From Panopea generosa (Eukaryota > Mollusca > Bivalvia > Adapedonta > Hiatellidae): 64,000 bases of DNA. This document shows, in pieces, positions 21,385 to 47,773 of the stretch. The position numbers and the translations under genes were made by a program. The first letter of the stretch is position 1. Each line of letters opens with the position of its first letter. The notes under the pieces are model-generated. The model was not told the DNA's origin. It did no database searches and was given only the letters and a program-made list of their open reading frames with translations. Location: contig CM055907.1 in assembly GCA_029582155.1 (NCBI GenBank), positions 34,870,492-34,934,491 of the forward strand. Reading direction: 5' to 3'.

Positions 21385-21575
21385 ATCTCAGGAAGGTGAT
21401 ATATATTTCCAACGTCACATCTATAGGCAATTCGAATATATTGGGCATTTTAGTTTCCATCAGTCATATTATGGCTTTTTATTATACAAAACCGAGGTAT
21501 TTTCGTTTGGGTCAGTCGGAAAGTAGCTTGACACCTGCCGCAAAAAGGCCGAGAGGTACACAGGTAAAAATGCCA

Positions 21576-22130
21576 CGCATGTTAAAGTATGTTTAACGTA
21601 CGTGCCAAAACATACGTTTACATATAAATAGTACCATGCGCGTTTAACATACGTTTCTGACCATACGTTTAACGTATGTTAAACATATGTTTAACGTACG
21701 TGCCAAAACATACGTTTACATATAAATAGTACCACGCGCGTTTAACATATATTTCTGGCCATACGTTTAATGTATATTAAACATATGTTTAACATACGGT
21801 CAAAATGTATGTTATTCATAGGAATAGTACCACGCATGTTAAACATATGTTTAACGTTCGTTTAACATATGTAACAATACGTACGTTATTCATATAAATA
21901 GTACCACGCATGTCAAACATATGTTTCACATAGGTTAAACATATGTTTCAATACGTATGTTTTTCATGAAAATAGTACAACGCACGTGTAACTAACGTTT
22001 GAGTACATATGTTTTTCTTGGAAATAGTACCATGCACGTTTTACAAACGTTTAAATATGTATGTTTTCATGAAAATATTACCATGTATATTTAACATAGG
22101 TTCTAATGTATGCTTTAAAGATATGAAAAC
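21576..22130. repeat. Left subterminal palindromic array
   Basis: Units of roughly 80-100 bp begin 'atagtaccacgcgcgtttaa' and contain dense copies of 'gtttaacatacg' and its complement. The perfect 18-bp palindrome GTTAAACATATGTTTAAC is one example (about 21,678-21,695). About seven units are recognisable and they decay with distance from the end. The right end of the 26-kb element has a related but differently built array, so these look like subterminal binding-site repeats. Confidence 0.88.
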
Positions 22131-22345
22131 TCATGTTTAACATTAGATCAATCGGTAACTTTAACAAACTTGAGAAGCTTGATGTAAGAATGCTTGAAGC
22201 GTTCTTACTTATTTTGGTGAAAATCTCCCCAGGGATATAAGAGATATCGCTTATAGAAATCGTTGACAGACAGATGGACAAAAAGTGATAAAAATTATAG
22301 CTCATTTAAAGCCTTTGGCAAGGTGAGCTTATAAGGCATAAAATG
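22131..22345. mobile_element. Fragment of a bivalve-type non-autonomous repeat with end hairpin
   Basis: The run 'tgacagacagatggacaaaa' followed by 'agtgataaaaattatagctca' and then the inverted pair AGCTCA...TGAGCT (about 22,298-22,328) resembles the ends of abundant non-autonomous repeats I recall from bivalve genomes. No protein is encoded. The family name cannot be fixed without a library search. Confidence 0.5.
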
Positions 22346-23204
22346 CCATACAAACAAATTATGAAAAAGGTATGACAGTAACTTAATATTTCAAAAATAT
22401 TACAAATCTATACAATCTATTTGTACATCTATCTGATGTACTCATTTATTTTTTACTTCCCTCCATGAATCCTTTTAAAATTTGTTTAAAGTCTAATAAC
22501 TATCAAATAAATCTGTTTATCATTGTACTTAATGGGACAGACATCATTATTCATTATTTTGTAAATACTGTGTCTTTCATTGCATGCTCTAGACAAAAAC
22601 TACCATAGATAGCAAAGGTGAAAGATTGAAAGACAAATAAAATAATACGACTGACACAAGCTGATCACATAATAACTCAAGAGCTTTTGTCTCATGAGAG
22701 CGAATAATAATGAACAATGAAATAAATTTAAGAACGTTTATATCAATCATGATGAAAAAGCAGATTTCTTTCATTAACATACTAAATTTTTTAAATCAGT
22801 CACAGTAATTGTTGTCTTTCAACAGGAGCGTCACAATGTTGTTAGACTGCATTTTCCATTTTGTAAATACTTCCTTCTCATAACATATGTAGCAAATAAT
22901 CTGTAAACTCTATTTAATTTCTCCATTATCATAGCAATATCAGTCGGGACAACAGCACATTTTCCGAAAAGTTCATGTGTATAATTGACATCTCATCAGC
23001 ATGTAATTTGGAACTGCAGTGTATGTTTTTGTCACTTGTTGTCTTCAGGTTTAAGGGATATAACTGTACCATCTATTTCCAGGTTTACTTTTCTTCCAAC
23101 TGAGCTATATTATTCCATGTCTCACTTCTCAGCAATGTTCCATACCAGTTTGTCACTGGAAAATAAATAATTATGCATGTGTACACATTACATATAATAT
23201 ATAC
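22346..23204. other. Stretch with no recognised feature
   Basis: AT-rich sequence with several short frames on both strands and no motif, fold or repeat that I can support. Confidence 0.45.
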
Positions 23205-23640
23205 AAGAGGCCCATGGGCTCTAATTCACCTGATTATCAAAAAAAAACATTCGCATAAGTGTATTCAGTTGGAAGAAATAACGTTTTTTGTCAATTTCTC
23301 ATAAATATAGATTTAGTAAAGGAGGCCCCACCCCAGAGCCAAACCGTAATACTCAGGGGCATGAAATTCACAAATTTTATAAAAGACTTATAGCCGTCAA
23401 AAATTATGATCACAATTTGTTTCCGAGTGCTTCCTATAATAGTAAAAGATTCTTAAAGTCTCCCTTGAATTTGACTGTTTTGGCCCCGCTCCTAAGACCT
23501 CATGGGGGTGGGGACCATGAAAAACACATAGGTATTCACCGTCATGTCAGCAACAACAAATCACACCAAAATGCATTCACATAAGTCTATTCAGTCATAA
23601 GAAATAAAGTTTTTTTGTTATTTTCTCTTCTGTAGTACAT
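23205..23640. mobile_element. Bivalve-type dispersed repeat with internal direct repeats
   Basis: It begins 'acaagaggcccatgggctct', a phrase I associate with high-copy bivalve repeats. Two direct copies of 'cattcgcataagtgtattcag' and the following 'gaaataa.gtttttt' lie at about 23,249 and 23,572, roughly 323 bp apart. They bracket a body with 'ggccccaccccagagccaaa'. There is no coding capacity beyond a 98-codon frame that spans the repeat and has no domain. Confidence 0.55.
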
Positions 23641-24169
23641 ATTATAGAATATTGTTTGCGTTATTAAAATAATTGATAAAAAGTGCAGTGTTACTTGTTT
23701 TTTTAATTTGTTTTAAAAATAACTTTACTTATAATTAGGAGCTGGTTTTGGTAAGTGTACGTAGTGGCTAGCTACAGCACGACGCATATCAAAAATAAAA
23801 AGCTGAATGAACCGTTACATTGGTTTCCACGGTGATTATTTCACGCAGCTTCCAGTACTTGCGACATTTCCGGTTCGATCAAGCATTTTTATATAATGAA
23901 AAAATTATTCAGTAAAGCGGAAATATAATGTCAGTCATTAAAATGTACACATTTTGATAAAGTATGTTATAAATAATACACAAATAAACTTGAAATAGTT
24001 CCCTATTAATGAATAAACGGAGAAAATACATGGTGTAGCTGACATGGTGGGTGGGGTATGCATATATGTAAAGGCATATTGAATTTTTTTTTTAAATAAG
24101 TGCGATTCTTACGGTAGTAAAAACCCTGGACCGATTTGCATTTTGGAATTTTAGAAGGCCTGTTCTGTA
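23641..24169. other. Stretch with no recognised feature
   Basis: No gene, RNA or repeat was recognised between the two neighbouring dispersed repeats. Confidence 0.4.
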
Positions 24170-24790
24170 CCTATCATCAATTCAATGTAAATATAAAAAA
24201 AGAAACTAAAATTATTATATGGAAATAAAATGTATGAATGAACAAGGTGCCCAAGAGAGCCTGAATTGCTCTAATGGCAACAAATGGACAGATGTACATT
24301 TCAGAGAAAATGTTTTTTTGTAAGTTTTGCTTCAACAAATCTTTCAGGAGACCACCATACAATGCTATACGTAAAATATTGTAGCCTCGAGCTTTCAGAG
24401 AAAATGTCTTAAATGTGCCTATATAAGCCTTGTTGTGGGGGCATTTGTGGTCGAATCATGCTGGTTCAAGACCTTGTCCAAGATATTTTGATTATATATA
24501 TCAGTTAAACTGCTGTGCAAGTTTTGTTAAAATTCAATGAAAAATGAAGGTGCTATCGCGTCTACAACATTTTCCCTATGTAAAACAGTGACCCCTGTGG
24601 CAGCCTCAAATTTCACTCCACCAGACTTAAACAAATCTTTTAGGGAACATCCATTCAATGCTACATGTAAAATATGTAAGGTCGAAGACTAAATGAAGGT
24701 GCTATCATGTTTAAAAGAAAAAGGTTAACGGACGACAGAAAATTTATCAGGACATAAGCCCTGTTGGCCTTTGACCAGTAGAAACCAGGG
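24170..24790. mobile_element. Dispersed non-autonomous repeat with two internal half-units
   Basis: The phrase 'caacaaatctttcaggagac' with 'caatgctatacgtaaaatat' (24,330-24,380) recurs as 'aacaaatcttttagggaaca' with 'caatgctacatgtaaaatat' (24,630-24,675), about 300 bp apart. The right edge 'ggttaacggacgacag' followed by 'ggacataagccctg' resembles the terminal part of the common bivalve repeats noted at 22.2 kb. It is non-coding. Confidence 0.55.
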
Positions 24791-26645
24791 TTGTCAAAAT
24801 GTTTCAAAGAATTAGTACTAAATTAAGAAGTAGCAGTATCCAACTTGTGAGTACCACCAGCAAAAAACAAGGACCAATGGCGCAAGTGGGAGGTAGAATA
24901 CGAGAGGGGTGGGCCAAGTGGCCTCCGTCATGGAAAATTTTGAAATTTAGATTGCAGGAGATGGCTTTTCAGCCATTCTGAGCTATATTCCAATCTAAAA
25001 TTATGAATGACTTTTCACTGTTTTTTTTACATGAAAACGTCAGCAAGGTCAGAAATATAACTTCTGAAAAAGGGCATACACAAAACAAGACGTATTGGCG
25101 ATTTGAAACATATATGGGACATCATGTTGTAGATTGTAATCCCCTCTCCCACCCGCCTCCCCTCACACACAATAAACCCTGAGAATCCGATAAATCACTG
25201 ACAACATGAGATAACAGACAAAGCGTTCCATTTTGAAGTGTCCATCTAGCAAAAGGGACACAACTCAGACATTGATTATCTGATTTGACTTATTAAAGAT
25301 ATCAGTTTGATATATTACTCAGTTAACATACAGTCCTAGCTAAGGTAAACATCATGCAAAAATATTGACTTCTACCAGTTCTCAAACTGAACAACAATAA
25401 ATTAAATACCTATCTATCCAGATGATATAGCTCAATGTTTTAAATAAAATGGAGATATTTAAGATGCAAATTTGTTAAAGAATTCAATACTGTATTTCAT
25501 TGATAATACCAGGAATATTAATCAATACGGTAATTTTCCCTACCTTTTTCAAAGACATTTTCACTGGTGAGGCATACCAGATTTTGGCCCATTACAGCTA
25601 GATTACCAGGTCCATATAGACTTTGGGGGTCTTTTAAGATCTCTTCCTTTGTAAAACGCCTCCAGTTCTAGTGCAAGCTGTTAAAGCTGAAACAACAGAT
25701 AATTTGTATACTACATGTATAGCAAAGTGTTCACTTTATATGACTGTTTACAGTTGATGATAACTTATTAAGCATTCAATCTAGAGAATAGTTTATAAAC
25801 TTTGATACAACATTTTAAGACAGTTTGTCAGAAAAAATCACAAAAATTAAATTGAGGCTAAATGAATATAGTAAAGCAGTGTTTTATCCAGCTCCAACTT
25901 TTTGGGGTCATTGATGACCCACTGACTAAAAATCTGGGGGTCATTTTCAAAATCTGGGGTCATCATTAACCAGTTTTAAACTTAATCAACTTGAATAAAT
26001 AGAGGTGAAAATGACATATTTTACTTCAACAGTTTACTTCCTATTTCACACAAATGTCAAAATCAAAATTCCAACTGAAATAAACAACTTCAAAACACTT
26101 TAACTTCCAAACGAATGTTTCACTTCTGGCCCAACAAGTTACAACACCTGAAACTAGTTGTCTTTTCCTTCCCAACGACAGTTTTTATGATCGTGGTCAT
26201 CAACTTTCCAAATGTCATGGCCTCAGATCGATCACCATGGCCCTTACTAGTTATAATGAAAAACACTATAATTATTTCAACATCTTATATTTCAGCTGAG
26301 CTTCATGTTTACCATTACTAAGCATTATACTCTTTGGAAAACAAACTTTATTCTTTTCTTTTTCCCATAACCATTTTTTTTCTGGTTCATAGCTAGACTC
26401 ATTTTAGAGTAATGTTACCTTAATATTATTACATTTTAATGGTAACTTTACAAAAATAAGTTTTTCAAAATAAATATAATTTTCTAAAAGTTTATTTTCT
26501 TTTTTCTATAACCCTTTAAACGTCCGTTAAAGAAACATAAACGGCGTAAAAACATGGACCGGCCTATGTTTAAACTGGTATTAAAATGTTGCCCATGCTC
26601 GTCTCGATTACCTTATAGAAAACAAAATAAAAAGGTTTTCAGATC
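24791..26645. other. Stretch of unclear content before the foldback element
   Basis: This contains one possible small exon (separate entry). A GGGGTCAT-rich run lies at 25,900-25,985, and a run near 24,900-24,980 ('aagtggcctccgtcatggaa') looks like a transcribed repeat. Nothing here amounts to a gene model. Confidence 0.4.
25544..25667 (-). CDS. Possible single exon of unknown protein
   Basis: On the minus strand 41 codons read NWRRFTKEEILKDPQSLYGP, then GNLAVMGQNLVCLTSENVFEK. Residue use is balanced, unlike the noise frames nearby. A GT donor follows directly (GAAAAAG|GTAGGG). An AG precedes the first Asn codon, but that acceptor has a weak pyrimidine tract. A better acceptor 'ctgttgtttcag' lies 19 bp upstream, and using it would bring an in-frame stop. 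No neighbouring exon was found and I do not recognise the protein. It could be a real exon, a processed fragment or a piece of a transposon. Confidence 0.28.
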
Positions 26646-27435
26646 GAGGGCTCAGCGCAATACTATTGTAACTTTGTTTTTTCCAAAAATCTTTTTTTTT
26701 TGCTTAAATAACTATAGTTTAACAATGTGCATCTTATGTGGTCCAGATATTTTAAATAATTTTGAAGATATTCACTTTTGGTGAAAATATTGTATCTCAA
26801 ATTCATGTATTCTTTAGGGCAAAACTATTGTAACTTGAATTTAAATTTAATTAAACCGATTTATCATACATAACCACACTTTTATTTAGTCCAAGAATAT
26901 TGTAATACAAATTTCAAATGATAGTTGAGGAAAATCTTTCAAGGTTTTGAAGAAATACAGGTATAGATACTTTTTTTTACTAAATTTTAGAAACATTTTA
27001 ATTTGATAAAAAAGTAATTTAAGTCAGATGAGTATGTTAAATGTTTTATTGATTTGGACATAAGTGACAATAAAGTGGATGATTAATATAGTTATTGTGC
27101 TATAAATGAACCATTTGTTGATATTTTGTTAAAAAATCTGATTATTAAAACTTGCAGTGAATTTTTGGGTTTGCATTTTTTTTAATAAAACGGCATCTAA
27201 TCTCACAATATTACTCAACACACTTTTAATTTATACCAATTATAACTTTACTAAACCAATATATCTCTTTTGAATACTTCCAGAATGAGATATGAACTAA
27301 TACACTCAGTATTATTCTGTTTAATATATCAGTACTAGAAGTCAACAGTATTTAATTATTTTAAAATGGCTGTTAACTTAGAACCAAAACAATATATTTA
27401 AGATATTGATAAACATTATTATACCCATTGAATAA
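26646..27435 (+). repeat. Left long terminal inverted repeat of the foldback element
   Basis: It pairs with the reverse complement of 31,015-32,119. Shared phrases include 'caatgtgcatctt', 'attcacttttggtgaaaat', 'actattgtaacttgaat', 'aaccacacttttatttagtc', 'accaatatatctcttttgaa' and 'ggatacagagtgtacag'. The motif 'aactattgtaact' occurs at the tip and again near 26,825, a candidate subterminal binding site. Confidence 0.9.
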
Positions 27436-27439
27436 AGCA

Positions 27440-29698
27440 CAATGTAGGTTGTGGGGTTGGAATGGGGTATGGTGGATACAGAGTGTACAGTGGATAGATG
27501 AGATAGTGAAGTGGATCTATAGGGTACAGCAGTTCCTGGTAGTGTGGTTGGTATGATGGATCAGGAAGGTACATCAGGGTGCTATAGTTGGTATGACGGA
27601 TGCAGAGGGTACAGCTGGTACTGTTATTGGTATTGTGGGTGTAAAAAGTACAGCTGGTAGTATAGCGGGTATAATGGGTGTATAGGGTACAACTGGTAGC
27701 ATAGTTGGTATAGTGGGTGTTGAGGGTACAGCTGGTAGTGTAGTTGGTATGCTAGGTGAATAGGGTATGACAGGTAACTAAGTTGGTATGGTGGGTGTAT
27801 AGGGTGTGGCTGGTAGCATAGTTGGTATAGTGGGTGTAGAAGGTAGAGCTGGTAGCGTAGTTGGTATGATGGGTGTAGAGGGTATGGCTCGTAGCATAAT
27901 TGGTATAGTGGCTGTGGATAGTACAATTGGTAGTATAGTTGGTATAGTGGGTGTTGAGGGTACATCTAGTAGTGTAATTGGTATATTGGGTGAAGAGGGT
28001 ATGACAGGTAACATAGTTGGTATGGTGGTTGTGGATGGTACAACTGGTAGCATAGTTGGTATGGTGGGTGTTGAGAGTACAGCTGGAAATGTAGTTGGTA
28101 TGTGGGTGTTGATGGTACAGCTGGTAGTTAGTTGGTATGGTAGGTGAAGAGAGTACAGCTGGTAGTGTAGATGGTATCATGGGTGTACGCAGTACAGCTG
28201 GTAGTGTAGTCGATATGGTATGTGTAGAGGGTACAGCTGGTAGTGTTGTTGGTATAGTCGGTATAGAGGTTACAGTAGGTAGTATAGTTGGTATGTTGGG
28301 TGTAGAGGGTACAGCTGGTAGCGTTGTTGGTGTTGTGAGTGTAGAAGGTAGTGCAGTTGCTATTGTGGATGAAGCGGGTACGGCTGGTAGTGTAGTTGGT
28401 ATGGTGAATAGCAAAGATGGTTTAACGGGTGTGGATGGTACAACTGGAAGCATATTTGGTATGGTGGGTGTTGAGGATACAGCTGGTAATGTAGTTGTTA
28501 TAACGGGTAAAGAGAGTACAGCTGGCAGTGTAGATGGTATCATAGTTGTATATACAGTACAGCTGGTAGTTTAGTTGATATGGTTGGTGAAGAGGGTACA
28601 ACTGGTAGTGTTGTTGGTATAATGTGTGTAGAGGTTATAGCTTGTAGCGTTGTTGGTGTTGTGAGTGTAGATGGTACAACTGGTAATGAACTTGGTACTA
28701 TGGGTGTTGAGGGTACAACAGGTAGTGTTGTTGGTATAGTGGGTGTGGAGTATACGACTGGTAACATTGTTGATAGTTGATATTGTTGATGAAAAGGGTA
28801 CAGCTGGTAATGTTGTTGGTATAGTCAGTGTAGAGTGTTTGGCTGGTAGCGTAGTTTTTATGGAGGGTGTAGAGGGTATGGCTGGTAGCATAGTTTTTAT
28901 AGTGGGTGTAGATGGTACAACTGGTAATGTAGTTGGTATTGTGGGTGAAGAGCGTACATCTGGTTGTGTAGATGATATCATGGGCATAAACAGTACAGCT
29001 GGTAGTATAGTTGGTATGGTGGGTGTTGAGGGTACAGCTGATAGTGTAGTTGGTATTGTGGGTGAAGAGGGTACATCTGGTTGTGTTGATGATATCTTGG
29101 GCATAAATAGTACAGCTGGTAGTATAGTTGGTATGGTGGATGTAGAGGATACAGCTGGTTGTATAGTTAGTATAGTGAGTGTAAATGGTAGACTGGTAGC
29201 ATAGTTGGTATAGTGGGTGAATAAGGTACAGCTGGTAGTGTAGTTGGTATTGTGAGTATAGATGGTATAGCTGGTAGTGCAGTTTGTATTCTTGGTGAAG
29301 AGGGTACAGCTAGTAGTGTAGTTGGTAATGTGAGTATAAAGGGGAAAGCTGGCAGTGTAGTTGGTATTGTGAGTATAAAAGGAACAGATGGTAGTGTAGT
29401 TGGTAAAGTGAGTTTAAGGGGTACAGCTTGTGGTGTAGTGGATATGGTGGGTATTGATATTAAAGCTAGTAGTGTAGTTGGTATGGAGGTTGTAAAGGGT
29501 ACATCTGGTAGTAATAACTGGTATTGTGGGTGTAAAGGGAACAATGAGTGATTAAGATGGTTGATATGGTATAGTGGATGTAGTAAGTAAAGTGAGTAGT
29601 TATAATGGTATGGTGGATGCAGAGTGGACATTGATTAGTGGTGTTGGTATAATGAATGTAATGGTTGCAATGAGTAGTGATGTTGATATTAAGATGGT
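27440..29698 (+). repeat. 39-bp minisatellite, left arm
   Basis: The unit is about GGTACAGCTGGTAGTGTAGT followed by 'tggtatagtgggtgtagag', 39 bp. Roughly 58 units fit the span. Because 39 is 13 codons, frames on both strands stay open for long runs (GTAGSVVGIVGVE on +, TIPTTLPAVPSTP on -). Degenerate units and frame-shifting indels show that no frame is maintained, so no protein is called. The outermost and innermost units are the most diverged. Confidence 0.95.
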
Positions 29699-29711
29699 AG
29701 TGAGTAGTTGA

Positions 29712-31005
29712 ATTACTACACTACTAGCTGTTCCCTTTACACTCACATTACCAACTGCACTACCAGCTGTACCCTCCATACTCACAATACCAACTACACT
29801 ACCAGCTGTACCCTTTATTCTTACATTAACAACTACTCTACCAAATGTACTCTCCACACCCATAATACAAACTACACTACCAGCTATACCCTCCATACTC
29901 ATAATACCACCTACACTTCAAACTGTACCCTCCACACCCAGAATACATACAACACTACCAGTTGTACCCACTTCATCCACAATACCAACTACACTACCAG
30001 CTGTACCTGCTTCATCCACAATACCAACTACACTACCAGCTGTACCCGCTTCATTCACAATACCAACTGCACTAGCAGCCGTACCATCTACACTCACAAC
30101 ACCAACAACGCTACCAGCTGTACCCTTTACACCCACCTTACCAATTATACTACCTACTGTAACCTCTACACCCACTATACCAACAACGCTACCAGCTGTA
30201 CCCTCTACATCCACAATTACGACTACACTACCAGCTTTACTACCTACACCAATAATGCCATCTGCACTACCAGCTGTATTCTCTTCACCTACCGTACCAA
30301 CTACACTACCAGCTGTACCCTCAACACCCACAATGCCATCTACATTACCAGCTTTCCCATCAACACCCACCATACCAACTATGTTACATGTCATACCCTC
30401 TTCACCTACCATATCAACTACACTACCAGCTACCATACCAACTTTGCTTCCAGTTGTATTATACACACCCACTATACCAATTACACTACCAGCAATACCC
30501 TCTACACCTACCATACCAACTGCATTACCAGCTGTACACTCTACACCCACCATACCAACTACACTACCAGCTGTACCCTCAACACCCACCATACCAACTA
30601 TGTTACAGTTATACCATCCACACCCACCATACCAGCAATGCCACCACATGTACCCTCTACATCCACCATACCCACTACACTACCAGATGAACCCTCTACA
30701 TCCACACTACCAACTATAGTACCAGATGTACCCTCTACACCCATTATACCCGCTATACTACCAGCTGTACCTTCTACACCCACCATACCATCTACAGTAC
30801 CAGCTGTATCCTCTACACCCTACATACCAAATACAACACTCTGATGTACCCTCCTGATCCATCTTACCAACTACACTACCAGCAGCTGTACCTTCGACAC
30901 CCACCATACCAACTACACTACCAACAGCTGCTGTACCCTCTAGATCCACTTTACCATTTCAACTATCCGCTGTACACTCTGTATCCGCCATACCCCATAC
31001 CAACC
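29712..31005 (-). repeat. 39-bp minisatellite, right arm (inverted)
   Basis: The same 39-bp unit is on the opposite strand, reading 'accagctgtaccctctacac' on +. About 33 units are present, so this arm is shorter than the left one. The longest frame, 378 codons at 29,708-30,844, is repetitive throughout and switches repeat phase part-way along, as expected of indels between units. Confidence 0.95.
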
Positions 31006-31014
31006 CCACTAACC

Positions 31015-32119
31015 ACATTGTGCTAATTTATTCAATTGGTATAATTAAAAGTTAACTCTGATAAACCAAAGTTTATCGAAATCTAAAATTGTTTTGGCTC
31101 TTTAAAAGCCATTTTAAAATAATTAGATAATGTTGACTTCTAGTACTGATATATTGAAAAGAATAATACTGAGTTTACCAGGTAATTAGAATTATATCTC
31201 ATTCTGGAAGTATTCAAAAGAGATATATTGGTTAAGTAAAGTTATAATTGGTATAAATTATAAATGTGTTGAGTGTTATTGTTGGACGGCCTTTTTATTA
31301 AAAAAAATGCAAACCAAAAATTTCACTGTAAAGTTTGATAATCAGAATTTTTTACAAAATGTCAACAAATGGTTCTTTTATAGCACAATAACTATATCAA
31401 TCTTCGATTTCATTGTCACTAATGTCCATATCAATAAAACATTTAACATACTCATCAGACTAAAATTACATTTTATGCAAATAAAATGTTTTCAAAGATT
31501 AAGTAAGTAAAAAAAAAACAAACAAAAAAAGTCTCCTTACCTGTATTTCTTCAGAATTTTGAAAGATTTTCCTGAACTTTCATTTGAAACATGTATTGCA
31601 ATATTCATGGACTAAATAAAAGTGTGGTTATACATGATAACTGGGTTTAATAAATTTCAATTCAAGTTACAATTGTTTTACACCGATATAAATAAAGGTT
31701 TCCAAGATATTATTTGGTGCAAAACTATTGTAACTCAAGTTACAATAGTTCTGCGCTAAAGAATTAGTGTATTTGAGATTCATTATTTTCACCAAAAGTG
31801 AATACAGTGTTTAAGCAGTCACCTCTATTAAGCAGTCACCTGTCTTAAACAACCATGTTTTTCTATTTCACATTTCTATGCTTTCAGAGCATATTAATAT
31901 TAACCTGTATTTAGCAACAACCTGTCTTAAAAGGCCACATTTACTCTTTCCCTTGGCTGGCTGCTTAAAACAGGTTTGATTGTATCTTCAAAATAATTTA
32001 AAATATTAGGACCAAATTTTAACACAAGATGCACATTGTAAAACTAGAGTAATTTATGCAAAAAAAACGATTTTTGGAGAAAAAAAACGGAGTTACAATT
32101 AGTGTTGCGCTGAGCCCTC
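31015..32119 (-). repeat. Right long terminal inverted repeat of the foldback element
   Basis: This is the inverted match to 26,646-27,435. It is longer because of a 178-bp insertion (31,805-31,982) and an extra stretch at about 31,680-31,757 that repeats the 'aactattgtaactcaagtta' motif. The tip is TTGCGCTGAGCCCTC. Confidence 0.9.
31805..31982. mobile_element. 178-bp TA-flanked MITE in the right foldback arm
   Basis: The left arm of the foldback element is an exact empty site. Its complement reads 'gtgaaTAtcttc', while the right arm reads 'gtgaaTA', then CAGTGTTTAAGCAGTC..., then ...GGTTTGATTG, then 'TAtcttc'. Ends are loose inverted repeats sharing 'ttaagcag', and CAGT/CAAT ends with TA duplication fit a Tc1/mariner-type MITE. 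Internal repeats of 'taagcagtcacct' are visible. Confidence 0.85.
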
Positions 32120-35545: not shown

Positions 35546-36601
35546 ACAAATCCTTCCTTATCTTTGGTAACTGATGGTTACGACAGCAAATATTCAACAT
35601 CCAAGCAAGGACCTACATAGATTTTATATACTTCTTTGAGCGGACTTGCACATGGACTTACAAACAGACTTACATATTTTGGCCATATATGAAACGCTAA
35701 AAATGCTATATTTTCTATTAAACTTTATGGCAATTTATTATTTTGATAGTTATAAATCATATCCAGACACACTGCTATTAAATAATCTACATATACAGTG
35801 ACTGAAATTGATAAATCCCCTTTTAGGCAGTGCCTTATTTTATAGGGGATTTATCACCGGCGCAGAGCGCCGGTGAAAATCACCAGAACGGCATTGTACA
35901 CGCGTCCGTTAAATTACAAGTGATGCTTATTTATTTTTTGTATTTCCGGTTTATACACTGGTGAGTCAAGGACTGTAACCCTTACAACTTAAATGGTTGG
36001 TTCTCACGGTTATTAAAAAATGGTGCAGGACGGCAACCAAAATATGAACTAGAGGAGTTAGCTCCCTTGACAAAAAAAGTGCACGTTTGGCTAAACCAAA
36101 TAACTTACTCTTTCCATACTTCAAAAAGTAGTCCGATAAGTATACGAAGAAATGTTACGGTTATACGCATTATTACGTTACATACACGATGTTTTTTATG
36201 ATTTAACAATATATATGTATATACAAGTCATGTATACTTATTGAAAGTAATTGATAAATAACAGTTTCGAATCTGCCATCCGAACAACATGACCCCAGCC
36301 GAAGGACGCCAGCCAACATATTGTTGTCTAGGATCTTAGTACAATTATACGTAGGTAAGGCTGATACACTTGTTATTTTTCCCGCTACGATAGGTGTAGT
36401 TTTTAATCAAATATTGTAGATGCACGGTCTTGGAAATATTGCCACTTACAAATAATGCCTCGTGGACAAGTAGTTTTCGTTACAGATCGTGACACCGTGA
36501 CAGTTGTGTTGACATATCTGTATGAGACGTAATTAACACCGACAAAAAATGATGTCTTTAGTCAGTCAGTCAGTGCCTTATTCGGGTAAGTAAATGAAAG
36601 T

Positions 36602-37222: not shown

Positions 37223-37291
37223 ATCTCTATAGTGTAAGCTAGCACACTTTTCTGTTTGAAAAGAGCTCCAGGTTCAAGTCCTGGTGGGGAT
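37223..37291 (+). tRNA. tRNA-like fold, copy 2
   Basis: Sequence and fold are the same as at 34,447-34,515, including the CTGTTTG anticodon loop and CCAGG/CCTGG T arm. The same doubts about function apply. Confidence 0.48.
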
Positions 37292-38116
37292 CTTGACACC
37301 CTTACGAAGTTGTACAAACTAAAAACTCCATTATATTTGTCAAAATTTAAATAAAAGTGTAATAGATGGTGTAAATACAATGTCAACCTTTCTTTACCAA
37401 GACTGTACACATGAGTGCCCATAGCCAATTGACATAGGTAATAATTATATAGATAAGACAATACAATTGGTATGGGCTTAAAGCTATATGATGCTAATAG
37501 AATGGGGCAACTAGAACTATTACCTGAATACATATAGACAACCAGGTTGGACTCAAAACCAGTCTCAAAATGTTACAATCATGTAGTAATGAAAGTAAGT
37601 AAAACAGAAGAGAGGAAGCTAACAGAGAAATACCACAAGTTCTGTTTGTTTACAATAACTGAGACATATACATTAAATCACTGACAATATACTGATTCAA
37701 TCGAATTTGAAAAAATAAGTATTACTGTATACCACTTAAAAAGACTGTTACACTGATATATAATTAATGAAACACATAAAAAATATTTGGTTGCAATTTA
37801 TTCCCTAAACAAAAATAGATTTGACACAAAAGTAGCACCTCTGCACAAGTAAGTCCATTTGTATCCCGTTATATACCTTTGGTAACTGAGGTTACTTGTT
37901 ATATGTCTTTGGTATCCTAGAAAAAAACATCTATGCTAAATAATTTTTCACATTGTAGTTCAAATTAGAAATATAAATAAATGTCTCTATCCCTGGTTAA
38001 TCGTTATCCTTCTTTGTCTTTTGGTACTCTAGATTACTACAGCAAATATATAACATCAAAATTTAAGAATTACTAAAAAACATGTCTTTATTTCTGGTTA
38101 CTTGGTTATCCTTCTT

Positions 38117-38325
38117 TGTGCGGAACGTGTGGTCCAGTGGTAGAGCACCACACCCATGATCAGAGGGTCGTGGGTTCAATCCTCCGCCATGGCTATGTGT
38201 GGTGTCCTTGAGCATGACACATTACCGCATATGCTTAATACTGGTTCTAACCAGGAAGTCTTTGAGCGTGATTTGTCTTAGATGTAAGAACTTGTGTGAT
38301 ACAATCGAAGTAAAAATAGATAAGT
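38117..38325 (+). mobile_element. tRNA-derived SINE (copy 2)
   Basis: This is the counterpart of 35,333-35,545. The A box ('gtggtccagtggtagagcac') is closer to a functional tRNA than in copy 1, and the B box is GGGTTCAATCC. The body phrase is 'ccttgagcatgacacattac'. Confidence 0.85.
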
Positions 38326-38627
38326 TTAAACAAATCCTTCCTTATCTTTGGTAACTGATGGTTACGACAGCAAATATTCAACATCCAAGCAAGGACCTAC
38401 ATAGATTCTTTATACTTCTTTGAGCGGACTTGCACATGGACTTACAAACAGACTTACATATTTTGGCCATATATGAAACGATAAAAATGCTATATTTTCT
38501 ATTAAACTTTATGGCAATTTATTATTTTGATAGTAATAAATCTTATCCTGACACACTGATATTAAATAATCTACATATACAGTGACTGAAATTGATAAAT
38601 CCCCTTTTAGGCAGTGCCTTATTTCAT

Positions 38628-39039
38628 ATTATTACTTACCGCTAAATATCATTAAAAACGACGAATATTGTTAAATTTGTCAGATTTTAAACTCATAAAA
38701 CGTGTTCTCTGTGCGTTCACAACAAGGGAAGTAACTCTAGCACACAAATCAATATTCGTCCTAAAGATGTTCACCCTGTTTTTTTTTAGAAAAAAAAATA
38801 TTGTTGTAGTAAAAATAATAGAAAATATATATGAAAACTTTACAAATGATTTACATTTAGTCTTAAAATAACTAAACATACCTATACATTCTTGTACTTA
38901 CTTTGTTTTTCTTTAAAGGCGAGTGACTTCATCATAAAAAAACCCGCAAATGATCTTTGTTCAAATGTTCAGATTTTTCAGTTTTACATATTTAGCTGCT
39001 TTACGGTTTATTTACTCTAAGTAAGCCAGTGCCGACCTT
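38628..39039. other. Stretch with no recognised feature
   Basis: A short AT-rich spacer between the tandem element and the LINE flank. The 67-codon and 75-codon frames on opposite strands overlap and show no domain. Confidence 0.5.
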
Positions 39040-39283
39040 TACCTTGAAAAATACCAGGAAACAGGAAACTTGGAGGTTGATTGACAATTTTTAATCTGTG
39101 GAACCATATAGGCCTATCTCTGACAAAAGTAATTAAAGGATTCAAATAAACATTTTATTGCATAGTGTGTATTAGTGAACCGATGTGAATACACGTTTGG
39201 TAGAGGTGAAAATGGGATAATGCAAAACCGAAAGTACAATCGTGTAAAGAAGTCACAGGGCCATGATAATCAGGTAGATATAC
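39040..39283. repeat. 244-bp direct repeat, left of the LINE
   Basis: It starts TACCTTGAAAAATACCAGGA and ends 'atcaggtagatatac'. It is identical to 42,845-43,088 except for one base (g at 39,232-39,236 where the right copy has t). The length is the same on both sides. The LINE body starts at the next base. It may be an exceptionally long target-site duplication. Confidence 0.95.
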
Positions 39284-42200
39284 ACTAAATGATTATGTTC
39301 AAACTATAGAAACATTCAGTGAACGCATAGCTGCTATAAAGATTTCATTTAAAACTTGCAATCTGTACGTCATTCAAGTATACTTACCATGTTCTAGTGA
39401 AAAGATAGACATTTTTAAATCGGAAGTAGATAGAGTGAACGACATACTATCTGTGATAGACAATGGCGATAAAACTATTCTAATGGGTGACTTTAATGCT
39501 AAATTTCTTGGAAATAAAACGTCCATAATATCGAAAACACGAGATAAATATATTCGATCACTCTCCGAAATGAATAACCTAATAGTGTTAACAGGAACTG
39601 ATATGTGCAATGGCCCAAATTACTCATTTATCCCAGGGGTAAATATGTCACCAAGTCTGATCGATCATGTACTGGTTGATGAATCTCTGATCTTTTGTGT
39701 ACGTGAGTGTTATATTGAAGAAGAAGCTCCACTAAATGTTTCTCGTCACCTGCCTATATTTATGCAAATACAGGTTGATGTAGATACTGACAATGCTTTT
39801 GTTACATCTGAACAATTTACAAAACACTGTTTCAACTGGTCATCGAACGTACAAAGGGAAATGTACAGATCACAGGTTAAAAAAAGCTTGGAAAACACAT
39901 CCTTTAACTTTGAAAATGTTAATGATTCGTATGAGAAAATTATCGCTTGTTTACAAAATAGCGCAGAAATCAGTATCAAAAAGAGAAAATTTAAGAAATA
40001 TCTTAAACCATACTGGTCACCAGTGGTAGAAAACTTACATAAATCCATGGTTACGTCACGTATCGAATGGTTAAAAAATGACCGGCCGAGAATTGGAGAA
40101 ATTTACAAAAAATATAAAAATCAAAAACGTATATTCAGACATGAACTGAGACTTGCAGGAAGGCTGTTTGATCGAGAAGAATACGAAAGAATTGATAAGT
40201 TGGCAGAACTAGATCATAAGGGTTTCTGGAAAGTGATCAAAGCGAAACGAAAAAACAAAGGAAATGCAAAAAATGGCAGTGAAATAATATTTAAAGATAA
40301 ACTTGAAAAAAATCCAGAAAGAATACTAGACGGCTGGCGAGATTATTTTAACGATCTTTATGCATTTTCTTGCGATACACATTTTGATGAAACTTTTAAA
40401 ACAAAAGTGGAAAAGGAACTCGAGTCTAAAATCGACTTAAACGAAAACAACTATCTATCAAGTTGCTTAATAAAACCATTAAACCCGAAAGAGTTGTTAA
40501 AAATAGTACAAAACTTACCAAATGGGAAAAGTGCCTCCAGCGATAACATTACATATGAACACATAAAACACGGAGGTGAAATACTGGTGAACTACATAAC
40601 AAGTTTATTTAACAGCATTTTAAGGCATGAAAAAGTACCATTATCATTTAAAAACGGTATAACCATAACTTTACATAAAGGTAGTGGAAAATCAAAAACA
40701 GACCCAAACAATTATAGGGCTATATCCTTACTTCCAGTGATCTCAAAAATCTTTGAAAAATTAATTTTGACAAGAATCGAAGGTAACACGAATCTACAAA
40801 CCAAATTACACTCACTACAACATGGATTTCAAAAGGGAAAAAGCAGTAAAATGGTCTCTTTTCTCTACCAAGAGGCAATCAATTACACTTACGAACGTTA
40901 TCAAGTTATGTATTCATGCTTTATGGACGCTATGAAAGCGTTCGACCGTACATGGATCTCCGGGGTTCTCTACAAACTGTATCACCTCGGAATATGTGGT
41001 AAAGCATTGCGCATATTTAACGACATGTTACGTGGAGGGTCAAGTCGTGTGTATGCCTGTGGGCATTTGTCATCTCGATTCCAAATCCACCAGGGAACCA
41101 GACAAGGAAGCATTTGGTCCCCGTTCTTATATACCGTTCTCATTGACGAACTTCTACATACTCTCGAGGCTTCAAACCACGGACTGAAAATAAACTCCGT
41201 GTCTCTCTGCGCACCTACACAAGCAGATGATATTGTTCTGATGTCATTGTCGAAAAACGGACTTAATGAACTAATAAAAATTTGCAGCACTTACGCAAAC
41301 AAATGGCGTTATTCGTATAATGCCTCAAAATGTGCTGTACTTATACATAATCAGAAACAACGTCATCGGCCGGAAGACAATACTCTGTGTTATGCAAATC
41401 AACCACTTCCAGTCGTCAAAGAATACAAACATCTTGGAATAATCCAGAATAACAGACGGAACTCCCCTGCAAATGTAGATATGGTGCGTCAAACTACGCG
41501 GGGATCGCTGTTCTCGTTAATAAACTGCGGTATCCATAGTAATGGCGTCAACCCTATAACGGCAGCAAAACTTTACACGTCCATTGTCCTACCACGAGCT
41601 CTATTTGGTTGTGAACTATGGAATGATATAACAAAAACTAACATGTCTCACTTAGAAGCTACTCACCATTTCTGTCTAAAACGCATCCAGAACCTACCCC
41701 ATCTTACCCGCTCAGACATGGTCACCGGTTTACTTTGGTTCACGTCATTAGAAGCATACATAGACTTACAAAAGTTATCGTTCCTTGGTACGATTTGTAG
41801 ACTTAAAGCAACAGACATTACGCTCCAGCTATTTCTCAATAGACTTTACCAATGCAAAAACATGTGTACAAAACGAAACAATGGCTTTATAAACGATATC
41901 CTACAAATACTCAGAAAATACAAACTGGAACAATATATCGAGCAATTCATGTTATCAACAACATTTCCTGCAAAAGAACCATGGAAAAGTGTTTGTAAAA
42001 AAACAATAATAAACTTCGAAGAACAGCATTGGTTATTACGAATTAACGCAAACGATGATTGCTTCCGGTTTCGAAGGGTCCACAATAAACTATCTCCTGG
42101 AACAGTCTGGCTAACTGCATTAGAGAATCCGTCTTCCATCGAGTCCATGACATTCTTAGCCAAATTATGCTGTGCACCAAAACCAAACCAAATAAAGAAC

Positions 42201-42844
42201 TGTTTAACATGCAAGGCACAATATACAGATGAACTGTTTCATAAAGTTTTTGATTGTAGCAGTAATAAACATCAGTCCACGAGGATGGCGTACTGGAACT
42301 CTCTCAATATTCAGTTTCCAAGTGATCTATGCTCATTTCTACGGAACAGTACCAAAGACATTCAATTACTATTCTTGATTGGATATGTAGATATACTTTT
42401 ATCTTCACTGTTAACAGTAAAGCAAATCTCAGAATTTATGAACTTTAATGCTGCTTTCCTGAGATCAATATACGCTTGTTAATAAACGCACGTCTATATG
42501 ATTTACATGTAGAGACTGATATTAAAATGAATTAAGACCTGAAACAAGATATACACACTTTAAACATTTTCATGTTTCGTTTCGGTGAAATAACCTAAAT
42601 GTGCATATAAATCATTCAAACTAGAGTCCTACAACAAGACAACAGATTTAAATAATTTACTTTAATTCACGAATAAAGACAGTTATTTATATCTACATCG
42701 ATGATAAAACCATAGACTTTGTAAATATTAACTATTATTTTGTAATTCACAATGTGATCATAGTATTTATATTGTAATATTATATGTATAAAATCCAAAT
42801 GTTTGTAAAATCTCCAGAAATGGGGGAATAAAAGTTGATAATAA
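39284..42844 (+). mobile_element. Young 5'-truncated non-LTR retrotransposon (LINE)
   Basis: The body starts part-way through the endonuclease domain, so the N-terminal half of the endonuclease and any ORF1 are missing. The rest is a single open frame to 42,482, then about 360 bp of AT-rich 3' UTR ending 'gttgataataa', a short microsatellite-like tail without poly(A). It sits precisely between the two 244-bp direct repeats. Near-identical flanks plus an unbroken frame point to a recent insertion. Confidence 0.9.
39285..42482 (+). CDS. LINE endonuclease (partial) plus reverse transcriptase
   Basis: The frame is open from 39,270 with no native start, and the first GTG that fits is at 39,435. 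Numbering from there, the C-terminal half of the AP-type endonuclease shows GDFNA (18-22), LIDHVLV (about 76) and SRHLPI (about 101). A linker leads to the RT: NGKSASSDNITYEH, NYRAISLLPVISKIFEKL, HGFQKGKSSK, FMDAMKAFDRTW (catalytic Asp498), QGTRQGSIWSP and TQADDIVLMS (Asp598-Asp599). The C-terminus has a knuckle CLTCKAQYTDELFHKVFDC from Cys923. QADD replaces the usual FADD/YADD, though the Asp pair is kept. No stop or frameshift was seen. It would replicate RNA by target-primed reverse transcription, but the truncated endonuclease makes this copy non-autonomous. Clade not fixed. Confidence 0.93.
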   Translation, partial: LNDYVQTIETFSERIAAIKISFKTCNLYVIQVYLPCSSEKIDIFKSEVDRVNDILSVIDNGDKTILMGDFNAKFLGNKTSIISKTRDKYIRSLSEMNNLIVLTGTDMCNGPNYSFIPGVNMSPSLIDHVLVDESLIFCVRECYIEEEAPLNVSRHLPIFMQIQVDVDTDNAFVTSEQFTKHCFNWSSNVQREMYRSQVKKSLENTSFNFENVNDSYEKIIACLQNSAEISIKKRKFKKYLKPYWSPVVENLHKSMVTSRIEWLKNDRPRIGEIYKKYKNQKRIFRHELRLAGRLFDREEYERIDKLAELDHKGFWKVIKAKRKNKGNAKNGSEIIFKDKLEKNPERILDGWRDYFNDLYAFSCDTHFDETFKTKVEKELESKIDLNENNYLSSCLIKPLNPKELLKIVQNLPNGKSASSDNITYEHIKHGGEILVNYITSLFNSILRHEKVPLSFKNGITITLHKGSGKSKTDPNNYRAISLLPVISKIFEKLILTRIEGNTNLQTKLHSLQHGFQKGKSSKMVSFLYQEAINYTYERYQVMYSCFMDAMKAFDRTWISGVLYKLYHLGICGKALRIFNDMLRGGSSRVYACGHLSSRFQIHQGTRQGSIWSPFLYTVLIDELLHTLEASNHGLKINSVSLCAPTQADDIVLMSLSKNGLNELIKICSTYANKWRYSYNASKCAVLIHNQKQRHRPEDNTLCYANQPLPVVKEYKHLGIIQNNRRNSPANVDMVRQTTRGSLFSLINCGIHSNGVNPITAAKLYTSIVLPRALFGCELWNDITKTNMSHLEATHHFCLKRIQNLPHLTRSDMVTGLLWFTSLEAYIDLQKLSFLGTICRLKATDITLQLFLNRLYQCKNMCTKRNNGFINDILQILRKYKLEQYIEQFMLSTTFPAKEPWKSVCKKTIINFEEQHWLLRINANDDCFRFRRVHNKLSPGTVWLTALENPSSIESMTFLAKLCCAPKPNQIKNCLTCKAQYTDELFHKVFDCSSNKHQSTRMAYWNSLNIQFPSDLCSFLRNSTKDIQLLFLIGYVDILLSSLLTVKQISEFMNFNAAFLRSIYAC

Positions 42845-43088
42845 TACCTTGAAAAATACCAGGAAACAGGAAACTTGGAGGTTGATTGACAATTTTTAAT
42901 CTGTGGAACCATATAGGCCTATCTCTGACAAAAGTAATTAAAGGATTCAAATAAACATTTTATTGCATAGTGTGTATTAGTGAACCGATGTGAATACACG
43001 TTTGGTAGAGGTGAAAATGGGATAATGCAAAACCGAAATTACAATCGTGTAAAGAAGTCACAGGGCCATGATAATCAGGTAGATATAC
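42845..43088. repeat. 244-bp direct repeat, right of the LINE
   Basis: This is the partner of 39,040-39,283 with one mismatch in 244 bases. Sequence beyond 43,088 ('tgtttattattttaattc') has no match left of 39,040, so the duplicated block is sharply bounded on both sides. Confidence 0.95.
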
Positions 43089-43689
43089 TGTTTATTATTT
43101 TAATTCTTAATTATTTCTTTAATAAAGATATTTACAATTTTGGTTAATTAATTATTATTTTGTATTGATTTATATGCAAACAAAATTATAGAAGCAGGTA
43201 ATACTTGACATTTAGATATATTTTTTAATTCAAATGATCTTCATTGAGGCCCTCTATTTAACAAAAGGAAATAAAAGATGACATTATATTTGACAGCTTC
43301 ACATTAAAACAGATCTAGTCATTTACATAAAATTAAGAATATTTTATACTTTATTTCAGTTGTGAAGCTGTTTCAACGTCAGCAATGTGAAGTATGAAGA
43401 GGAGGACTAATTAAATATTGGATATGATACACTTCATTAATTTGAAACTACCTAGATGGTGCCTACTTGGATGATTATTATATTGTGGATATACTACAGA
43501 AGAAAAACAATAAAATATTTGGAAAATATTGCTGGTTCCTTTTATATCTGGTGTCAGCTGTGATAATTTATCAGTTATACATGTAAATGAATTAATTCAT
43601 TTGAATTAAACATATGTATGACACACTTATGTTTACATATGGTTTTGTTAACATATATGAATAATATGTAAAACGATTTTTTTTTAAAT
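43089..43689. other. AT-rich stretch with no recognised gene
   Basis: The phrase 'tgaggccctctatt' at 43,247 also occurs in the LINE tail at 15,486, so part of this may be an old LINE 3' end. Nothing else was recognised. Confidence 0.4.
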
Positions 43690-44104
43690 TAGCCTCTACC
43701 TGTTTTAGTGATATTCCCGAAAACAGTATGTCCTAAGTGTTGTTTTTTAGATTTTAGCGCAATAATTATACAGGATTTTTTAACATATTTTAAACATATG
43801 AATCGAAACGCATATGACAAACGTACGTTTCACATGCGTTCAACATATGTTGATGTAAACGTATGTTTTACATATGTTTTTGATTGTCAGACATGTATTT
43901 ATGATCCTCGTACTTCAATTAGACCCTGCCTCTGGCTCTACTAGTGATATTTCCAAAAATAGTGAGTGCCATGTGCTGTGGATCATTTTAGTGCAATAAT
44001 TATATATTCATTTAAACATATTAATTGAATCAAGTATGACAAACGTACGTTTAACATGCGTTTAACATATGTTTCTGTAAACGTATGTACATAAATTACA
44101 TAAC
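43690..44104. repeat. Right subterminal array of the 26-kb element, inner part
   Basis: Two units of about 240 bp are present. Each starts near 'cctctacctgttttagtgat' / 'gcctctggctctactagtga', passes 'ttagngcaataattata', and ends in a run of 'acaaacgtacgtttaacatg', 'cgtttaacatatgtt' and 'gtaaacgtatgt'. The motif set matches the left array, but the unit is longer and has its own spacer. The array is cut off at about 44,104 by a minus-strand LINE and resumes at 47,605. Confidence 0.82.
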
Positions 44105-44479
44105 TTGTAACTTTATTTATTTGTATCAAGGCCACCGGCCCATACACAATACAATAATAAACTAATATAAACACTGCATAGAAGTGTGCACATGTGATAT
44201 AAATATGTCAGTTACTAATATATTTATACACACATTCCATATATATATATACATACATATTCAATAACCTAACTAGATACCTTGTATGTGTGAATTTCTC
44301 AATGTGAATGCATAATGTATAAACATTGCTAAATTGTGTACAATATTTTCATTTCTACTAGACATTAATATTAAACTTGCTCAAGGACGGGGATTCAAAA
44401 TATTTCTTTGGCAGATATTTTCAGCATTATATATAATGGACAAACTAGAAGAAAGTGGTTTTCTGTTTCAATAAGTAAA

Positions 44480-44944
44480 TCACAGAATATGCAATAACGC
44501 ATTTCTCTTGGAATATTCACAGTCCCCCATAACTGCGGCATTACAAGATCTAAATGGTGCATTCATATATCTTTTACTTGCATAAATATGTACACGTTCA
44601 ACGCAATCACGTTGTTGTAGACCCCACAGTTCAGCACCATACATTAACACAGGACAAACTTTTGTATCAAATATTTTAAAAAATGTTGAAGAAGGCGTAG
44701 GTAGTAAATTATTCACACCTTTTAGAACAGATATTAGAACCCGTTTAGCTTTATTCGCAATATTTTCAGACATTTTATAAAGTGGTAGTTTACTTGTAAA
44801 TAGCAAACCAACATAGGAAAAAGCGTTTACTGTTTCTAATTGATGATTATCATTAAACCATTTTTCACGCCTAGCTAACAGACCACCGTTTTTAAACACA
44901 ACAAGTGTTGGTTTTCCTACATTTACATCCAACAACCAGTCCAA
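44480..44944 (-). pseudogene. Decayed LINE: post-RT C-terminal region
   Basis: It reads DWLLDVNVGKPTLVVFKNGG, then FNDNHQLETVNAFSYVGLLFT, then a stretch with VCPVLMYGAELWG. These are the 'v.n..Kt.v..F' motif after the catalytic block, the 'f.YlG..ft' motif, and the 'v.p...YG.e.W' motif of LINE RT thumb and C-terminal regions. The downstream zinc knuckle is not seen and the frame ends at 44,480. Confidence 0.88.
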
Positions 44945-44968
44945 ACACTACTGATGGAGATAATTTAG

Positions 44969-45490
44969 TTATTGCTGTAAACCGCTAACAGTATCGGCAA
45001 TTAATGCTACATCGTCAGCAAAAAGTAATGAAAAGATTTCAGTGATCTCAGGACATAATTGTATGCCATATGTTCCACTGTTAGCAACAGTTGCATTTAA
45101 TTCATTTATAAAAATTGTAAATAATATAGGGCTTAACTTGCAGACTTGTCTAAGTCCAAGTGGATAATTAAAATACTTTGTAAAGGTTGATCCGATTCTT
45201 ACTCTAGGTTTTACGGATCGATAAATACTTTTTATGGACTGAAATAGATGGCCTTTAATTCCAATTTGTTGTAACACTGTATACAATTTAGATCTATTAA
45301 CAGAGTAAAACGCTTTTTTAAAGTCTACGAACGCCACATAAAGAGGTTTATGTTTCTTACACAAATATTTGTTAATCAAGGAATACAAAACAAAGCCATT
45401 ATCAACGGTCGAATAGCCGGAACGAAAACCTGCCTGCGACTCGGTTATTTTATCAAAAGCGTTAATAAAAAACGTAACCCGCTTAGTCAA
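44969..45490 (-). pseudogene. Decayed LINE: reverse transcriptase, catalytic half
   Basis: Motifs in order are ESQAGFRSGYSTVDNGFVLY, then YVAFVDFKKAFYSVNRSKLY (first catalytic Asp), then GLRQVCKLSPILFTIFINEL, then LLFADDVALIADTVSGLQ (FADD catalytic pair). All catalytic Asp are present. GLRQVCKLSP has lost the usual G-x-x-L spacing (normally Q-G-x-x-L-S-P) in one residue. Confidence 0.92.
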
Positions 45491-45505
45491 TATACTAATG
45501 TATAG

Positions 45506-46290
45506 TTAACTAAAGATATTTATAAGAGATATGCCTCTGTAACTGTCTGGATCATTTATATGCCTCTTTTTATGTACCGGGACAATTATACATTTTGTCC
45601 ATGAAGCTGGAAATTCTCCAGATCTATAGATTCTATTAAACAGTTTTCGAATAAATGGTAACAAAATATTAATACCATGAATAAAATGTTCTGCAACAAA
45701 ATTACCACTTGCGGATTTTTTTTGGTCTATACCCTTTACTGCATTAACAATTTCGTCATCTGTGATGTCACTGTTAAACAGAATTACTTCAAAATCATCT
45801 AGGTCAAGATTTACTTCGCTATCGTCTTCTATGGTTGCATCACCATCACTATTAAAAACTTGTTTAAAATGATTGAACCACTGAGATGAAGAAATAGTTG
45901 GGACTTGACACTGAACCTGTGTATATAACTTTAAATTCTTCCAAAACATCTTTGGATTTTTTACCGATGATTCCAGTTTATTTAAGAAAGCATCATGATA
46001 AGTCTTTTTCTTACGTTTACATAAATATTTATACTATTTACGACCGTACAAATATAAATTCAGATTACACGCTAATTGGCTACGTCGCCATTTGCGAAGC
46101 AGTTTATTTTGTTTAGTTTTAAGAGATCTGCATTCACTGTCAAACCATTTCTTTGACGACCGTTTTTTAGAGTCACCCTTTAAATATTGAAATCGTTCAC
46201 TACAAGTTAAAATAGTTGACTCAAATGTATCAACAATATCTTCAATTTCAACATTTTCATCATCTATTTTATTAATAATATTATCAAATA
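45506..46290 (-). pseudogene. Decayed LINE: linker and N-terminal RT
   Basis: Upstream of the main frame the same reading carries SKKWFDSECRSLKTKQNKLL, then a stop, then YHDAFLNKLESSVKNPKMFW. It then runs into WFNHFKQVFNSDGD, DDEIVNAVKGIDQKKSASGN and DPDSYRGISLINIFS. These are the 'WfD.eC' linker, 'f..kl....' and RT motifs 0-2 of CR1-type elements. At least one stop (about 46,030) interrupts. Confidence 0.88.
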
Positions 46291-46296
46291 TTCCAT

Positions 46297-47200
46297 CTAG
46301 TACATTTTCATATAGAACAGTTTTAAATCTTCAGCACAATTACTATCAAAACAATATTTTGTGGACGACTGTTTAGTCAAGGGCACATCAGATACCTGCT
46401 CAACATTTTTTATAACAGCCCTACATAAAGATAATAAAACAGGCAAGTGACCACTGTCTGACCTGGTCTGTATTTCAAAATCAATGACACTATCAAATAT
46501 GTTTCTGGTAGCAATAAAATAATCTACAGTACTACATCCATGTATACTGATATATGTAAAGCCACCGTAAAATTTATCAGACCCTAATCTACCATTCATG
46601 ATAAGAAGGGAATATTCTTTACATAGAGTTATTAAATCTCTATCAAATTTGTTAATTGTATTATCTTGGTTATACCTCTTATTACAATGGTTATCATCAA
46701 ATATATCCACATACTCTTAAAATTCAGGAATGTTGTCATTAATAGAAACAGTTTCATCAAGATCACCTGTCCGGGCGTTTAAATACCCACATTACAATAT
46801 ATTTACTATTTCCAAGTAAGCTTTCCAAACACTGAATTCCCTTTTGACTCAGATCTCCATAAATTGGAGAGCTTTCGGGTGGCAAATATAAACACATCAG
46901 TATAAAATTTGTTTGCATATTTACAATACTTTTATCAAATTCAAGTATAACACCGAATTCAAAATCATCAATGATTCTAGAGACGACATTTGAAAAGCAA
47001 TTGTTAACAAAAATTATAACACCACCCATATTTCGACAACCTGCTCGTGACCTTTTAGCTAAACATACAAAATTTAAAAACTGTTAAGTCGTTTATCCAA
47101 GTTTCTACAAAACATATGATATCATGCTGTCTCAAATAATCAATAAACTCTGTATCATCGAGTTTGTCAGTTCAACCGTTAATGTTCCAGGTTAGTATTT
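46297..47200 (-). pseudogene. Decayed LINE: AP endonuclease
   Basis: The N-terminal motif WNINGL (near 47,180) and HDIICFVETWI are in different frames. GGVIIFVNN, MCLYLPPESSPIYG, then a downstream frame with FYGGFTYIS, STVDYFIA and SDSGHLPVLLSL follow. The order matches a full-length AP-like endonuclease (N-I-N-G, E-T-W, Y-x-P, S-x-x-D-Y, S-D-H-x-P), with the usual SDH changed to SDSGH. At least two frameshifts and several stops are present. Confidence 0.88.
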
Positions 47201-47406
47201 ATAGTTTAGAATGTGATGGGCGTTGGCCATTGTCCTATTCAACATCAATTTCGATCTCTATACCCCTGTTCATGTCGTCATTTGCAGTTGCATGCTCATA
47301 TTGTTTAATTTTCTTCTTTTATACACCCTTGATTTGACTTCTTTGTCAGACTTATTATCATCCTTGGCAGTAATTATCTCTTATTTCTCATTTTTAAATA
47401 GCCATA

Positions 47407-47604
47407 TTAGCCTCGCCTTTTCAGTTTATTTAATTCTTGGTTGATCTGGTTGTGACTGGCCAAGCCTTTTGCATACAAAACCACATCCGCGCTATAGTCT
47501 CCACCTGTATATGCGGTATCCATAATTTCTGATTTTATTTTCGATTTTAATAACTCATCAGATTCATTTTCAGATTCGGTAAGTCCAAACACTCTCAAAT
47601 TGTT
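47407..47604 (-). pseudogene. Decayed LINE: ORF1 C-terminal piece
   Basis: The sequence reads NLRVFGLTESENESDELLKS then KIKSEI, and ends near ASHNQINQELNKLKRRG. The 'n.R.fGl.E......e......i' pattern is that of ORF1 proteins of CR1/L1-type LINEs. Sequence on the 5' side is the palindromic array, so the element is truncated here. Confidence 0.7.
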
Positions 47605-47752
47605 TTATGTTTAACGTGCGTTTCTGATTATCATATGTTTCTTTACGTATGTTAAACGTATGTTTTGAAACGTATGTTAACCAAAACGCATGTTAAACAC
47701 CCGTTCAACGTATGTTTAACATATGGTGGACAAAACATATGTTAAACATACT
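47605..47752. repeat. Right subterminal array of the 26-kb element, outer part
   Basis: Dense copies of 'cgtatgttaaacgtatgttt', 'gttaaacacccgttcaacg' and 'catatgttaaacatac' run up to the inverted end. It is the continuation of the array at 43,690-44,104, separated by the decayed LINE. Confidence 0.85.
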
Positions 47753-47773
47753 TGGCATTTTTACCTCAGTGTA

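Follow-up and report, generated by a model that had tools for sequence, protein, structure and literature searches.

In the genome of the bivalve Panopea generosa, a stretch of 64,000 nucleotides on contig CM055907.1 (hereafter the window) contains a 26-kb block that is bounded by TA on both sides and ends in inverted repeats, which raises the question of whether a giant transposon entered this locus as one unit or a smaller element grew after its arrival. We favor the latter explanation and assign a probability of roughly four in five to the block being a non-autonomous, TA-inserting cut-and-paste DNA transposon, originally about 7 kb long and enlarged by later insertions.

Insertion borders and the empty site

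The window contains a diverged tandem duplication, with copy A extending from approximately 11.3 to 49 kb and copy B from approximately 49.7 to 62.3 kb. Identity between the copies is 75–77% in the three longest blocks and 85% in a 392-bp block, and three blocks to the right of the insertion align at 68–78%. Protein-level comparison of A and B revealed, in our judgement, no clear gene among the 25 best rows, and no gene was found when four translated frames of the flank stretches were searched against Pfam. The insertion and its empty counterpart are defined by the following features:

21557–21558, left TA target-site duplication (border read and joined-flank alignment to copy B)
21559–47771, complete insertion of 26,213 bp (supported by the empty site in B)
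47772–47773, right TA target-site duplication (border read and joined-flank alignment to copy B)
61058–61059, uninterrupted TA in the paralogous copy B (A flanks joined at one TA align here)

The 26-kb block is a genuine insertion at a TA site. Its exact span, 21559–47771, begins with CAC and ends with GTG, and a single TA lies on each side. The left border at 21551–21575 reads GAGAGGTA followed by CACAGGTAAAAATGCCA, and the right border, from 47753, reads TGGCATTTTTACCTCAGTG followed by TAACGTCAGC. Once the flanks of copy A are joined at one TA, a gap-free alignment to copy B covers 18 bp on the left side of the junction and about 49 bp on its right side, with 52 of 67 positions identical; the next best unrelated place in the window reaches 34/67, leaving aside a 56/67 match that presumably represents the right flank of A itself. 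The BLAST piece spanning the junction extends over positions 1457–1651 of the joined sequence, in which the junction is at 1500, with 78.6% identity (E 1.6e-39). The left 18 bp alone match copy B at 14 of 18 positions, the best score outside 21.0–22.0 kb (runner-up 13), and this left-side evidence for the empty site is weak when taken by itself. Homology near the site is short on this side because slightly farther to the left copy B carries about 1.5 kb (59.5–61.0 kb) with no counterpart in the compared 1.5-kb flank of A. Both the TA-flanked insertion and the paralogous empty site had been proposed in an earlier sequence-only reading, and both are borne out by the exact borders and by the uninterrupted TA in copy B.

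The tandem duplication alone does not tell the ancestral state, and precise excision might instead have removed the element from copy B, or a deletion there might mimic an empty site. We consider this very unlikely, as copy B has one TA without a footprint and the insert in copy A is bordered by TA to the left and to the right.

Inverted ends and subterminal arrays

Comparison of the two ends and a search for their shared motif identified five features:

21559–21575, plus strand, left terminal inverted repeat CACAGGTAAAAATGCCA, without the TG of the right end (end comparison)
47753–47771, minus strand, right terminal inverted repeat CACTGAGGTAAAAATGCCA (end comparison)
21576–22150, plus strand, left subterminal array with 22 motif matches and higher-order repeats of 98, 74, and 52 bp
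43601–44088, minus strand, right subterminal array, inner part, with 10 motif matches
47606–47752, minus strand, right subterminal array, outer part, with 9 motif matches

The ends are inverted with respect to each other: the right end comprises the 19 bp of CACTGAGGTAAAAATGCCA, and the left is identical except for a 2-bp gap where TG is absent. The 14-mer AGGTAAAAATGCCA occurs exactly at only two places in the window, namely the two ends in inverted orientation. With up to two mismatches it yields three matches, which is not unusual given a shuffle mean of 1.13 and 12 of 100 shuffles reaching three. The subterminal regions are also related. Local alignment of the left region with the inverted right region scores 67, compared with a maximum of 35 among 200 two-base-block shuffles, which upholds the sequence-only claim that the inverted ends carry related arrays.

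The array motif, AACRTAYGTT, is a self-complementary 10-mer present at both ends. Matches were counted across the window with at most one mismatch, and 41 of the 57 fall within three short blocks (22 in 21584–22093, 10 in 43609–44080, and 9 in 47613–47734). By comparison, 60 first-order Markov simulations gave a mean of 19.5 matches and never more than four within 600 bp. The commonest spacing inside the arrays is 11 bp (12 of the 35 spacings under 60 bp), and the array makes up about 0.6 kb at either end of the element. On the right, it continues at 43.6–44.1 kb, with a minus-strand LINE, designated LINE-B, separating its two parts, an interruption that adds to the earlier reading; the right array looks short because LINE-B splits off the block at 43.6–44.1 kb.

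Searches beyond the window addressed the ends themselves. The 22-base end pattern had no match in viral contigs. A looser end pattern matched five bacterial loci among prokaryote genomes, with motif counts of 1, 1, 2, 1, and 0 per approximately 8 kb; these loci lack the array and were dismissed as chance matches. A literature search with four end strings, as literal strings only, gave no match. Combining CACTGAGG with transposon terms retrieved PMC2872659 and PMC6946643, of which the former concerns TTAA-flanked coral MITEs in which CACTGAGG sits in a different context.

LINEs inside the insertion

Two LINEs, one of them accompanied by a duplicated repeat, lie within the block:

39284–42844, plus strand, LINE-A, open reading frame with endonuclease and reverse transcriptase (RVT_1, E 1.5e-24)
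42845–43088, plus strand, second copy of a 244-bp direct repeat, 243/244 identical to the first
44089–47605, minus strand, LINE-B, within the right array (RVT_1, E 9.3e-24)

LINE-B is flanked by TATGT at 44084–44088 and 47606–47610, a possible but weak candidate for its target duplication. Of 2000 random junction pairs put through the same offset search, 597 shared a 5-mer, and because chance 5-mers are this frequent, the nesting of LINE-B rests on the interrupted array and not on TATGT. LINE-A, which is probably truncated at its 5′ end, lies between direct repeats at 39040–39283 and 42845–43088 that are identical at 243 of 244 positions. We read these repeats as a putative, unusually long target-site duplication, and LINE-A looks young because they are near-identical. 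LINE duplications above 20 bp are classed as long in PMC4245944, an excerpt of which makes no mention of hundreds of base pairs.

Foldback and tandem unit

Two further blocks occupy much of the interior:

26646–32119, foldback of 5.5 kb, its inverted arms rich in a 39-bp minisatellite and its ends reading GAGGGCTCAGCGCAA
32305–38628, tandem pair of a 3.5-kb unit with AGGGGATTTATCA inverted ends on each

The outer ends of the foldback, GAGGGCTCAGCGCAA, are identical, and its arms consist largely of the diverged 39-bp minisatellite in inverted orientation. The right arm contains a 178-bp TA-flanked insert (31805–31982) that is absent from the left arm; it constitutes a second empty-site case in the window and resembles a TA-inserting MITE. 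The tandem unit copies are arranged head-to-tail and share 96.7% identity across 2,066 bp; segments of 473 and 278 bp are missing from the second. Foldback and tandem units each carry inverted ends of their own, and both blocks are probably nested insertions.

Several smaller repeats were also observed in this region. ARAGORN identified tRNA-Asn (GTT) in both tandem unit copies (34447–34516 and 37223–37292), possibly reflecting a tRNA-derived SINE. The segment 33840–33960 resembles, by eye, part of 5S rRNA, and it may be a 5S-derived SINE; Rfam at gathering thresholds returned no match across the window, this segment included. A repeat of about 190 bp, which looks tRNA-SINE-like by eye, occurs at 70–72% identity in the tandem units (35345–35531 and 38129–38315) and in copy B (56341–56527).

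Presumed base element and coding content

The remaining interior is assigned to the presumed base element:

22151–26645, non-coding interior, presumed base element, which may contain further unrecognised repeats (Pfam-negative)
38629–39283, presumed base element, including the first 244-bp repeat copy at 39040–39283
43089–43600, presumed base element interior (Pfam-negative in six frames of 42480–44100)

The sequence-only reading had judged the insertion far above the usual size even after removal of nested DNA, a claim that the analysis does not support. Subtracting both LINEs and the extra repeat copy (7.3 kb) leaves 18.9 kb, and subtracting all four blocks (19.1 kb) leaves about 7.1 kb, a size that depends on the proposed nesting of the foldback and tandem unit and would otherwise be 18.9 kb.

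Pfam searches with E values up to 1 returned no match in six frames of 22100–26699 and 32121–35850, and no transposase domain in six frames of 38600–39290 and 42480–44100. In LINE-B the searches covered the minus strand, and in LINE-A one frame. From this coding content the element is read, although not proved, to be non-autonomous. The present copy is probably immobile, because the parts searched contain no transposase gene and its left tip is two bases short.

Proposed history and competing explanations

In the history that we propose, the element would have landed in copy A at a TA after the locus had been tandemly duplicated. A transposase encoded elsewhere would have excised the element after binding to its ends and palindromic arrays, and would then have inserted it at the TA. 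Two LINEs, and most likely also the foldback and the tandem pair of another terminal-inverted-repeat element, would then have inserted inside, so that nested insertions expanded an element of about 7 kb to 26 kb. We infer the order of insertion followed by growth because the array is interrupted and the LINE-A repeats are near-identical; this small-insertion-first order is simple but not proved.

An opposing explanation holds that the 26 kb, entirely or for the most part, was mobilised as a single unit, a giant non-autonomous transposon that already included some of the blocks described here as nested. A single TA-flanked event at the empty site is consistent with such a unit, as is the observation that no clear target duplication was seen at the borders of the foldback and tandem unit. 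The interruption of the right array by LINE-B and the young appearance of LINE-A nevertheless argue for later growth, as do the separate inverted ends of the foldback and tandem units, and we regard the giant element as very unlikely. A particular form of it, in which a TA-inserting non-autonomous transposon of 19–26 kb carried the foldback and tandem blocks as cargo and its palindromic arrays allowed the transposase of a small element to move it, appears more improbable still.

Very unlikely, too, is the suggestion of the sequence-only reading that two short inverted elements with ends of their own mobilised the DNA between them. The arrays are inverted and each is sized like a small element, and weak plus-strand matches to the terminal repeat occur at 26001 (11/19) and at 22176, 22331, 25916, 39201, and 43006 (10/19 each). 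Such scores are not confined to the block, however: among the best 15 non-overlapping matches, the 13 that are not the ends score 9–11/19, and because seven of these 13 sit outside the insertion, this range is background. Where the left array borders the interior, none of the best 15 faces inward (minus strand), and AGGTAAAAATGCCA has no exact copy in the window away from the two tips. Only the two ends exceed background, and the composite was rejected for want of inner-facing terminal repeats above that level.

The locus illustrates clearly how nested insertions can make a modest TA-inserting element resemble a giant transposon, since a single window shows the empty site as well as the interrupted array. 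Arrays of a self-complementary 10-bp motif, most commonly 11 bp apart, would be useful for family assignment. Were the same interior retained in other copies, it would be possible to test how large a TA-inserting transposon can become.

Comparison with known transposon superfamilies

Non-autonomous Tc1/mariner elements have a TA duplication and CA...TG termini, and subterminal repeats are typical of plant CACTA elements. The TA target-site duplication of the Tc1/mariner (IS630) type is present here, and so are the short-repeat subterminal arrays at both ends that we associate, by analogy with plant CACTA, with the EnSpm/CACTA type (CMCT). The frames searched with Pfam yielded neither a DDE/D transposase (Tc1/mariner) nor a CMCT-type one bearing C(2)C and H(3-4)H motifs. 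The element resembles non-autonomous Tc1/mariner elements in its TA duplication, its CA...TG tips, and the lack of any coding capacity found, and differs from them in its long subterminal palindrome arrays.

The excerpted text of PMC12730594 describes CMCT lineages as having mostly CA..TG termini and 2–5 bp duplications, both of which are observed here, and reports that ESTA and PHISTA duplicate TA in fungi; the ESTA described there is fungal, unlike the present element. Among animal TRC elements, 2-bp direct repeats are reported for 7 of 14 SmTRC1 copies in the relevant part of PMC1636069, where CCC is proposed as the possible tip of animal TRC elements, and an excerpt of PMC4298943 deals with CACTA elements of the TRC type that have CCC tips and 2-bp duplications; the tip here is CAC, in contrast to the CCC suggested in PMC1636069. 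As for size, a 20.5-kb CACTA element is in print, according to the title of PMC2613891.

The element further differs from the EnSpm/CACTA type in that the parts searched contain no EnSpm-type transposase. A TA duplication combined with CA..TG tips is compatible with Tc1/mariner and with an EnSpm-like superfamily alike, and these characters do not separate the two. The long arrays, by analogy with plant CACTA elements, would lean toward the EnSpm side.
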